NCBI RefSeq assembly: GCF_018389385.1
Contig: NZ_CP062698.1
Span: 3,041,501-3,105,500 of the forward strand
Length of the DNA: 64,000 nt
Direction: 5' to 3'
Source of the DNA: Anthocerotibacter panamensis C109
Lineage (GTDB): Bacteria > Cyanobacteriota > Cyanobacteriia > Gloeobacterales > Anthocerotibacteraceae
The stretch's first letter is position 1. Each line of letters opens with the position of its first letter. The notes below the pieces were generated by a model. That model was not told the origin of the DNA and made no database searches. It saw nothing but the letters and a program-made list of their open reading frames with translations. A program made the position numbers and the translations under genes. Positions 10,998 through 46,392 of this stretch are shown piece by piece.

Positions 10998-11834
10998 ATG
11001 AGTACAACGCGCATCCCACAGCAGCGCACCATCCCCACCACTAATGTGCTCGGGGTGGAGGTCAGTGCTGTCAGCTTGGAGTTTGCCACCGACGAGATCC
11101 TGCACTGGATCGAGGAAGACAGACAGCACAGTGGCCTGTGGTCAGGCCACTGTGGCCTGACCACAGGCCACTACGTCGCGGTGACGGGCGTCCATGGCAT
11201 TATCGAGTCCCAGGATGACCCCCACTTCAAGCGCATCCTCAATGCCAGCGGGATGGTGGTACCGGATGGGATGCCTCTCGTCTGGCTCTCCCGGCTGGCT
11301 GGACACCGCTCTGTCACCCGCGTCTACGGACCGGACCTCACCTTGAGCTTGAGTCAGGCTCTGGGGGCACGTCAAAAGTCTGCTTTTTACTACGGTGGGG
11401 TTCCAGGGGTCGCCGACCAGCTAGCCCGGATTTTAGAGACGCGCTATCCAGGGCTCAAGACCGCAGGCACTTTTAGTCCCCCCTTCCGGGAACTGACCTC
11501 CCAGGAAGAAGACGGAGTCGTGGCCCTCATCAACCACTCTGGGGCTCATGTCGTCTGGGTGGGCTTGAGCACCCCTAAGCAGGAGCGCTGGATGGCCCGC
11601 CTGCGCCACCGGCTCAAAGTCCCGGTCCTGATTGGTGTGGGCGCAGCTTTTGATTTCCACACAGGGCGCGTACGTCAGGCCCACCCTTGGGTCCAGCGCT
11701 CGGGCTTCGAATGGCTCTTTCGTCTGTGTATGGAGCCGAGGCGGTTGGCGAAGCGCTACTTGCGCAACAACCCCCTCTTCATCTATCTGCTCTTGTGCCA
11801 ACAACTTAAGCTGCGCGATTTTCGGGCCACCTGA
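10998..11834 (+). CDS. WecB/TagA/CpsF family glycosyltransferase with an in-frame palindromic insertion
   Basis: A family 26 glycosyltransferase of 278 residues, the type that adds ManNAc or related sugars to a lipid-linked acceptor. Conserved blocks are YVAVTGVHGIIESQ, ASGMVVPDGMPLVWLSR (catalytic Asp region), YYGGVPGVADQLA and VWVGLSTPKQERWM. Just before YVAVTG, where the family usually passes directly from a short linker to the YVxVT strand, the protein has about 14 extra residues (SGLWSGHCGLTTGH). They are encoded by a nearly perfect palindrome at 11131-11171. AGGAG lies 7 bases before the ATG. The insertion keeps frame, so the enzyme may still work. Confidence 0.88.
   Translation: MSTTRIPQQRTIPTTNVLGVEVSAVSLEFATDEILHWIEEDRQHSGLWSGHCGLTTGHYVAVTGVHGIIESQDDPHFKRILNASGMVVPDGMPLVWLSRLAGHRSVTRVYGPDLTLSLSQALGARQKSAFYYGGVPGVADQLARILETRYPGLKTAGTFSPPFRELTSQEEDGVVALINHSGAHVVWVGLSTPKQERWMARLRHRLKVPVLIGVGAAFDFHTGRVRQAHPWVQRSGFEWLFRLCMEPRRLAKRYLRNNPLFIYLLLCQQLKLRDFRAT
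11131..11171. repeat. Perfect 20-bp inverted repeat with 1-base spacer inside a coding sequence
   Basis: The left arm GTGGCCTGTGGTCAGGCCAC (11131-11150) is the exact reverse complement of the right arm (11152-11171), with a single T between them. Each arm is itself a smaller inverted repeat (GTGGCCTG/CAGGCCAC). A CAC triplet stands at both ends of the extra segment. No second copy was noticed in this window. It resembles an in-frame palindromic element of the kind known from Rickettsia, but relation to any known family is not established. Confidence 0.9.
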
Positions 11835-11844
11835 ACAACCCACT

Positions 11845-14454
11845 ATGAAAATACCTACGCCTCTGCTTACGGTCAGCCTCCTGAGCGCTATGGTCCTGGC
11901 ACGGGTGGGGGCACAGGGCCTACCCGCTCCCGTGCCCGCCATCCCTGCCTTGCCCCCCATTCCTCCGACTGTGGTCACTGCTGGGGGCCAGCGCTTCTTG
12001 CTGGCGGACCAGCCCGTGGTCGTCCGCTACGATCACGGGCATCTCACCAGCAATCGGCCCGGTTGGTGGCTCATCAACTATCCCATCACCGCAATTCAAG
12101 GTCTGGAGGGGAAGAGTATAGAGCAGATGAGTCAGATGCTTTTTCACCAGCCCTCCCGAAACCTGCGTAACTGGTACCTCAACACCCCCGGTACCCCCAC
12201 CCCCGAACCCGGTCAGGCCAAAGGTCCTGCCCCTATTGCCTTGACTGCGGGACCGGCTTTGATCGTAGATAACCGCCATCCGCGAGCCAGCGACAACAAT
12301 CCCGCAACTGCGGCTCAACCGCTGCGCACGATAGGAGCAGCGCTCCGGCGAGCGGGTTCGACGATCCGCGTCCAGCCCGGGATCTATCGCGAAGCGCTGA
12401 CCATCACCAAGGGCGGCACCGCCCAACAACCGCTGCGCCTAGAGGGGGTGCGCGGACCAGCAGGAGACCTCCCGGTCATCACCGGCAACACCCCCTTCCC
12501 CGCCGGAGCTTGGCAGCCCGTCAAGGGCCTGACCGGGGTCTATCGGGCGGAGATTTTCACAGGACAAGAAGGGGCAGTGTCGGCGGCAGGCGAAACCCTC
12601 GTCGAGCGTTCGCTGCCCCAAGACCTCCAACCGGGCGAGTACACCTTCAACCGGGGCTCCCGAGAATTCCTCAACCCGCGCTTTGCCACAGCAAAGCCCG
12701 CCCCGGCTCCAGGACAGACTTGGCAACGGCGCGGGGTCGATGAAAAAGGTTCCCTCAAGCTCGACGGCCCTACAGGTGTCTGGTGGGCCTCGACTTATGT
12801 CTATGTTCCTCCCGCCATCCTGGCTGAGGACAGCGAGCAGACTTTGGACCCAGGGGTCTGGCACCTCAAGGTGGAGGGGGATTTCAGGGCACGCCGTGTA
12901 CCGGGCCTAGCTTTGCGCAAAGAGCCCAATGCCTACCGCGTCTGGCTCAACGGTCAGTTGCTCCCCGCCTATATCTATTCCACCGCCCACCGCTTTGAGC
13001 TGGAGCGGCCCCATCCCGAGCGCAATAACTGGCAGAACTTCCCCTTCCAGACCGGGTGGAACCATCTGGTTTTCCAGTTCGACACCACCATTCGCCCCGG
13101 ACCAAAAACCTTCAAGTTCAGCGTACCCCGCGCCCTGCGGCAGGTTTTGACCTCAGCCCAGGGACCGATGGACCCTAAAACGCCCGCGCCGCGCCATTCC
13201 TATCTCACGGAATATCTGGTTGCGGGGCCATTTTCGGGAGCCCCCGACCGGGGCGTGTACGTCCGGCTCAGGGGAGACCGCGACCCCAACCGGGCCGCTT
13301 TAGACCTCGCCCGCTACAATACCCCGCTTCTCAAAGTCCAGGCTGATTTCGTCGCGATCCGGGGGTTTGAGGTCCGGCACGGAGCACAACCGTTGCAGCA
13401 GGGGCAGGTACAGCTCAAGGGCGCAGGGCTCCTGCTTGAGGGAAATCTGATCCGCGACAGCGAAATGGCCGGGGTGTTCTTCTTTGCCGACCGCGACCAA
13501 CAGAGCCCGCCCATCACGATCCGCAACAACTGGATCATCAACCCCGGTAACACCGGGATCAAGGGTCTGGGCCGCTCGGGTCGTCTCACCTCCGAGAACC
13601 AGGACACCACAGCTCCAGGTCGCACACCTGTCCGCCTTGAGTACAACACCATCATCAACAGTAACTGGGCGGGCTACGATCCGGGCTGGGAATCAGGCGG
13701 GATGAAACTCTTCCGGCTGACAGGGAGCATCATCCGCTACAACACCATCAGAGGAGGGAGTGGACCGGGCATCTGGCTCGATTCGGAGCACTATAGTAAC
13801 CGCATTGAGGGCAACCAGATCGAGAACAGCTACGCCTACGGGATAGGCGTCGAGCTCTCCCCCGGCCCCAACCTGCTCGCCAACAACCTCATCACCGGGC
13901 TGCGTCCCGGTCCTGTCTGGTTTCGCACCGCCTTGCTTGCCTGGGATACTAACCGCACTTGGGCCGTCAATAACACCCTGGATGGAGGCTGGAACACCCA
14001 ACGGGGCGGGCAGGACTCAGGGACCATGGGCATCAGCCTCAGTACCCGGCCCACCGACCGCACCACCCGCTGGAGCACCCGCAGGCCGGATGCCGCCTAT
14101 GTGAATAATCTTGTGGTCGGCTCTCAGCGCACCCTCCTCACCCAAGCGTCGGACCTCGTAGCCGCCAATTTCACCGACCGGGGCAAGGGAGCACACATCC
14201 CTCGCAATCATGCAGACTACCGCCTACCTGCTGTTGACCGGCTCAACACCCTGGGCACAGTGAATAGGATCACCCACTTCGTAACCCATGACTTTTACGG
14301 GCTGCTGCGCTTCTGCGATCAAGGACAGGGCGTGGGCGCGTTCCGGTCGCCCCCGCCACCGAACCAAACCTGGCTGGAAGTCGAGCTTCAAGATGGCACC
14401 CCACTGCGGCTCAGCCCTGACCCACTGCACCCTTCTATTGCTGGAGAACCCTGA
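11845..14454 (+). CDS. Secreted right-handed parallel beta-helix protein
   Basis: An 869-residue exported protein. The N terminus KIPTPLLTVSLLSAMVLARVGAQG is a signal peptide, probably cut near AQG, followed by a Pro-rich linker. From about residue 140 it has AAQPLRTIGAALRRAG and TIRVQPGIYREALTI, the usual entry to a DUF1565/NosD-type beta helix. Later it has Asn-rich turns such as IIRYNTIRGGSGPGIWLD and NRIEGNQIENSYAYGIGVE. Such proteins bind, cleave or epimerise polysaccharides. Within this operon a periplasmic or surface role on the nascent polymer is likely. No catalytic triad was identified. No clear ribosome binding site precedes ATG 11845, 10 bp after the previous stop. Confidence 0.8.
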   Translation: MKIPTPLLTVSLLSAMVLARVGAQGLPAPVPAIPALPPIPPTVVTAGGQRFLLADQPVVVRYDHGHLTSNRPGWWLINYPITAIQGLEGKSIEQMSQMLFHQPSRNLRNWYLNTPGTPTPEPGQAKGPAPIALTAGPALIVDNRHPRASDNNPATAAQPLRTIGAALRRAGSTIRVQPGIYREALTITKGGTAQQPLRLEGVRGPAGDLPVITGNTPFPAGAWQPVKGLTGVYRAEIFTGQEGAVSAAGETLVERSLPQDLQPGEYTFNRGSREFLNPRFATAKPAPAPGQTWQRRGVDEKGSLKLDGPTGVWWASTYVYVPPAILAEDSEQTLDPGVWHLKVEGDFRARRVPGLALRKEPNAYRVWLNGQLLPAYIYSTAHRFELERPHPERNNWQNFPFQTGWNHLVFQFDTTIRPGPKTFKFSVPRALRQVLTSAQGPMDPKTPAPRHSYLTEYLVAGPFSGAPDRGVYVRLRGDRDPNRAALDLARYNTPLLKVQADFVAIRGFEVRHGAQPLQQGQVQLKGAGLLLEGNLIRDSEMAGVFFFADRDQQSPPITIRNNWIINPGNTGIKGLGRSGRLTSENQDTTAPGRTPVRLEYNTIINSNWAGYDPGWESGGMKLFRLTGSIIRYNTIRGGSGPGIWLDSEHYSNRIEGNQIENSYAYGIGVELSPGPNLLANNLITGLRPGPVWFRTALLAWDTNRTWAVNNTLDGGWNTQRGGQDSGTMGISLSTRPTDRTTRWSTRRPDAAYVNNLVVGSQRTLLTQASDLVAANFTDRGKGAHIPRNHADYRLPAVDRLNTLGTVNRITHFVTHDFYGLLRFCDQGQGVGAFRSPPPPNQTWLEVELQDGTPLRLSPDPLHPSIAGEP

Positions 14455-46258: not shown

Positions 46259-46276
46259 TTTGCGCCTACTTCGTCC

Positions 46277-46308
46277 AGTCCCGGTCTATCGCACGATAGA
46301 CCGGGACT
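46277..46308. terminator. Perfect 15-bp hairpin after the secreted-protein gene
   Basis: AGTCCCGGTCTATCG (46277-46291) and its exact reverse complement (46294-46308) are separated by two bases. The hairpin begins 18 bases after the stop codon, and no T-run follows. It should be very stable and probably ends or protects the transcript. Confidence 0.6.
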
Positions 46309-46392
46309 GCTCGGCGTTCTGGTGGACCTTTGAACGGATGAACCCGTCGGTGCTCGCGTTACGATAGCAGATGATGGCTTGGAAAGGCTCTT

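Follow-up and report, generated by a model that had tools for sequence, protein, structure and literature searches.

How a perfect palindrome came to lie inside the open frame of a glycosyltransferase gene, and whether it belongs to a mobile repeat family, are the questions raised by this locus. The palindrome is the longest inverted repeat detected within the window, the whole 64,000-nt stretch of DNA analysed here. A first-pass annotation, made from the letters alone, had described it as a 20-bp perfect inverted repeat with a 1-base spacer at 11131–11171; perfection and spacer are correct, while the arms measure 21 nt and the repeat occupies 11130–11172. Its layout is 21+1+21 nt, AGTGGCCTGTGGTCAGGCCAC-T-GTGGCCTGACCACAGGCCACT, with 100% complementary arms and a lone unpaired T between them. 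The features of the locus are as follows.

10998–11834, plus strand: WecG/TagA/CpsF (GT26) glycosyltransferase, 278 aa, intact ORF (PF03808, 8.6e-59; TIGR00696)
11127–11129, plus strand: CAC codon at the 5' edge, forming a 3-nt direct repeat with CAC 11169–11171
11130–11171, plus strand: in-frame insertion of 42 nt, encoding S45–H58, absent from 109/109 homologues
11130–11150, plus strand: left arm, holding hairpin 1, GTGGCCTG-TGGT-CAGGCCAC, at 11131–11150
11152–11172, plus strand: right arm, holding hairpin 2, GTGGCCTG-ACCA-CAGGCCAC, at 11152–11171

Each arm is itself a small inverted repeat, as had been noticed earlier, and forms an inner hairpin GTGGCCTG-NNNN-CAGGCCAC with an 8-bp stem and a 4-nt loop; the entire element can be described as one 8-mer present four times in alternating orientations. 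The RNA stem of the whole palindrome has a computed energy of −45.4 kcal/mol (z −6.5). Perfect 21-nt arms with a spacer of 0–10 are expected only ~1.4e-5 times per 4.19-Mb genome at its own composition. A terminator reading was rejected, given the position inside a gene and the lack of a T-run after the stem. Assignment to a known RNA family was likewise discarded: Rfam returned nothing above threshold, and the weak matches below it were almost exclusively to models of microRNA precursors, as any perfect hairpin will produce.

Reading frame, host enzyme and predicted fold

The insert comprises exactly 42 nt, or 14 codons without a stop, and its residues SGLWSGHCGLTTGH stand directly before YVAVTGVHG, confirming the initial observation of about 14 extra residues at this point and placing them in frame. 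Alignment with homologues, proposed at the outset as a check, found these residues in 0/109 sequences: all 14 are missing throughout the aligned set, which covers many phyla. The nearest homologues (~60% identical) have ...KETPTFVTVTGVHG or ...REPHYVCVTGVHG at the site, and cutting out the 42 nt gives back ...EEDRQHYVAVTGVHG (...DRQHYVAVTGVHG). Sequence comparison supports the view that the palindromic in-frame insertion is derived and lineage-specific.

The CAC triplets reported at both ends of the segment are indeed present (11127–11129 and 11169–11171), and because of them the insertion point can be shifted by up to three bases, giving four equivalent placements with 11127, 11128, 11129 or 11130 as first base. 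This direct repeat may represent a target duplication, a microhomology or a pair of matched codons. By our own estimate, a random insertion of similar length would keep the frame and lack stops with a probability of roughly 0.17, and the in-frame state is therefore not in itself remarkable.

The residues conserved in the family (D90, R108, Q195, E196, R242 and R249) are all present in the host protein, with D90 aligned to the catalytic Asp65 of TagA (catalytic residues from PMC6493773), and a Foldseek comparison matched the protein model to the TagA crystal structure 7n41 (4.1e-17). In a quick tree, the gene clusters with non-cyanobacterial homologues, not with other cyanobacterial ones, and adjoins a gene from an alphaproteobacterial MAG (SH-aLRT 99). 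To judge from these relationships, the gene at 10998–11834 was probably acquired by horizontal transfer into the lineage; given its non-cyanobacterial grouping, the insertion may predate the arrival of the gene in this genome.

An AlphaFold2 model of the host protein, built on a 69-sequence alignment, reached a mean pLDDT of 93.7. Residues 49–54, within the insert (45–58), fall below 50; nowhere else do three or more consecutive residues score so low. The insert links the first long helix (27–47) to strand 58–63 and is predicted to occupy a disordered loop. The original suggestion of a landing in a surface loop is thereby upheld by the model as far as the loop is concerned. The active-site pocket of TagA lies close to the C-terminal ends of the β-strands (PMC6493773); the insert joins its strand at the opposite, N-terminal end and should therefore sit off the pocket. 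Model and sequence together support an insert that is tolerated in an otherwise intact enzyme.

Copy number

The palindrome had been likened to the Rickettsia palindromic elements (RPEs), as a possible selfish or mobile sequence, and a search of the genome and its relatives for the arm had been proposed. In the complete genome (4,187,797 bp, single contig), both the hairpin pattern (≤2 mismatches) and the palindrome centre (≤3 mismatches) returned this locus and background only, and two covariance models (double hairpin; long stem) detected, besides this locus, a single match at E = 8. A mobile palindrome family was rejected for this genome, the copy number being one by pattern and covariance models alike.

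Among the relatives, 386 cyanobacterial genomes contained no copy, as did 299 genomes from the phylum of the nearest homologue and the viral contigs searched. The 38 genomes with the closest homologues gave two chance-like matches with 2 mismatches, one each in two Meiothermus genomes. Plasmid and phage matches were at chance level (E 0.6 or worse), and a Gordonia plasmid match at E = 0.6 proved to involve another hairpin, in a region unrelated to this one. The search thus recovered only this locus, and the comparison with a selfish or mobile palindrome of the RPE kind was not sustained. Since a second copy was not found, the insertion is a curiosity and not evidence of a spreading selfish element. 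Double-hairpin elements of fungal and algal mitochondria likewise consist of two adjacent small GC-rich hairpins per unit, but they are repetitive and mobile in mitochondria, unlike the single-copy palindrome described here.

Origin of the insertion

The reading that we tentatively prefer, at less than even confidence, is a single, recent and tolerated in-frame insertion of a 42-nt palindrome, by fold-back synthesis, into a horizontally acquired wecG/tagA-type gene. We infer that the insert originated once, through fold-back or template-switch DNA synthesis on a hairpin template, and that it is translated like the codons around it and tolerated, without a role of its own. A short seed would first fold back and be copied into a 20-nt hairpin, a second round of fold-back copying would extend this hairpin to the 41-nt palindrome, and the strand would rejoin its template at the CAC microhomology. 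Two fold-back rounds would produce just such a pattern of four alternating 8-mers, which could explain it. The perfection of the arms far above chance, the CAC microhomology at the ends and the copy number of one all favour this route. Against it, two successive fold-backs are required and the seed has no local donor, the longest local match being 10 nt, the same as in random controls; moreover, GTAG directly at one end and a REP-like geometry would equally suit an origin by transposition.

According to the literature, perfect inverted repeats can be generated by template switching (PMC6649704; PMC8604942). A further point against the fold-back route is that the published cases are mostly homogenisations of inverted repeats already present, not insertions of 42 nt (PMC8604942). 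The coding palindromes of Nematomorpha mitochondria (PMC6649704) resemble the present case in being perfect inverted repeats within translated genes; their arms, however, encode conserved residues and there are many per genome, whereas the palindrome here is wholly extra sequence.

The first rival, which is possible though doubtful, sees in the palindrome a lone head-to-head dimer of REP-like hairpins (REPIN-like) that a Y1 transposase (RAYT or IS200/IS605-type) placed as ssDNA on the 3' side of a GTAG target, possibly in the gene-donor lineage, where the family may persist. One further feature bears on it.

11171–11174, minus strand: GTAG directly 5' of the hairpin; plus-strand CTAC, in which the last base of CAC meets the ancestral codon TAC; pre-existing and outside the insert

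On the minus strand this GTAG immediately precedes a hairpin with an 8-bp stem and a 4-nt loop, and the two hairpins stand head-to-head with a spacer of 1–3 nt. GTAG REPs have stems of 5–13 bp and loops of 2–20, mostly form HH dimers that are sometimes 1–2 bp apart, occur at times within ORFs and are known in Cyanobacteria (PMC3733652). The palindrome resembles intragenic GTAG/CGTC REP dimers (PMC3733652) in its facing 8-bp/4-nt hairpins, its GTAG at one end, its location in an ORF and the extra residues it encodes; it differs in lacking a dispersed family, in having one tag that was already there, and in having no REPtron that shares its hairpin. Transposition would also gain from the probable transfer of the host gene and from the genome's one full IS200/IS605 transposase and 217-aa RAYT-like protein. 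The RAYT hit, however, scored 61.7, below the curated cut-off of 80, the flanks of the two transposases (IS200/IS605 and RAYT-like) hold no similar hairpin, and other copies are absent from this genome and all genomes searched. The GTAG itself is supplied by ancestral His-Tyr codons and would arise by chance at about 3%, counting four placements and either strand, while the second end carries no tag. Within 30% of the genome, GTAG hairpins numbered 7 where 4.4 were expected, an excess that is not significant, and over-strong palindromes are reported to block RAYT cleavage (PMC3733652). With no clear excess of tagged hairpins and an ancestral GTAG, the REP explanation is therefore placed as first rival and the element is not filed as a REP. 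As for the CGTC signature of REPs, the CGTC found close by is on the 3' side of the hairpin when read on the plus strand, not on the 5' side, and the sampled 30% of the genome held 0 CGTC-tagged hairpins.

The RAYT-like transposase gene (L190:1045-1698) holds, within its coding frame, an inverted repeat of its own, with arms at 1365–1379 and 1414–1428 (GGTAATGCATTCGC ... GCGGATGCATTACC), a pair without a further copy in the genome at ≤1 mismatch. The IS200/IS605-type element (L188:208-1881) carries divergent tnpA-like and tnpB-like genes.

An unlikely source is a lost transposon, whose imprecise excision would have left behind a 3-bp target duplication (CAC) together with remnants of its two terminal inverted repeats. 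The perfect inverted repeat, its minimal spacer and the 3-bp direct repeat at its flanks agree with such a scar; yet no element with such ends was found in the genome or in the plasmid or phage collections, and terminal repeats that are hairpins themselves would be unusual. There is a slim chance of a true RPE-like mobile family whose remaining copies lie in genomes outside those searched. RPEs, too, are palindromic DNA inserted in frame in coding genes at permissive sites and tolerated there (PMC10969869; PMC3767692), as in the tolerant loop seen here, but they measure 100–150 bp and form many copies and families, whereas the present palindrome has 42 nt and a single copy in a complete genome, with none in 386 + 38 + 299 other genomes. 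A fold-back chimera introduced in sequencing or assembly is very improbable: although the segment is known from one assembly of one strain, it is exactly in frame, stop-free and at a loop boundary, and its precise removal restores the ancestral sequence.

Scarcely credible is an in-frame translational bypass, in which ribosomes would take off from the CAC preceding the 21-bp hairpin and land on the matching CAC beyond it, giving some product without the 14 residues, because no stop follows the first CAC (11127–11129), the next codon being AGT in place of the stop of a gene 60-type take-off, and because plain translation already explains the open frame. Known bypassed inserts (phage T4 gene 60, 50 nt; Magnusiomyces mitochondrial inserts; PMC5009743) are similar in size and stably structured, and the gene 60 edge codons GGA/GGA form a matched pair like CAC/CAC; the insert here differs in being in frame and open, with neither a take-off stop nor a known nascent-peptide signal. 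In-frame bypassing is reported only with synthetic constructs in E. coli (2016 review, PMC5009743), and bypass here, if true, would be a natural in-frame case in a cellular bacterial gene.

Under the preferred fold-back origin or otherwise, the locus is a clear, isolated example of the in-frame entry of a perfect palindrome into a bacterial protein-coding gene, lacking the repeat family by which such insertions are usually explained. If confirmed in other strains, it would indicate that coding palindromes can arise singly and be tolerated, a possible start of REP or RPE families; for now, it contributes one more carefully described example and otherwise alters little.

Other palindromes in the genome

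A sample of 1.264 Mb, or 30% of the genome, was screened for palindromes regardless of their sequence and contained 13 long ones, 4/13 within ORFs. The palindrome of the glycosyltransferase gene is the longest of these four, and it alone has been demonstrated to be inserted. A candidate in a squalene/phytoene-synthase-like gene was rejected as an insertion, its alignment to human squalene synthase being gapless. A perfect 28-bp palindrome, GACCCTGGGAAAAATTTTTCCCAGGGTC, lies in an orphan ORF (L140:15871-15898) for which homologues were absent from 29 relatives and from plasmids, and a near-perfect 41-bp palindrome (L154:12931-12971) lies within a 347-aa ORF (12806–13849). Outside long ORFs, the window contains a perfect inverted repeat with 16-nt arms, CAGTCCCGGTCTATCG/CGATAGACCGGGACTG, and no T-run (46276–46309), and a perfect inverted repeat with 23-nt arms (L136:4145-4195) is perhaps a bidirectional terminator.
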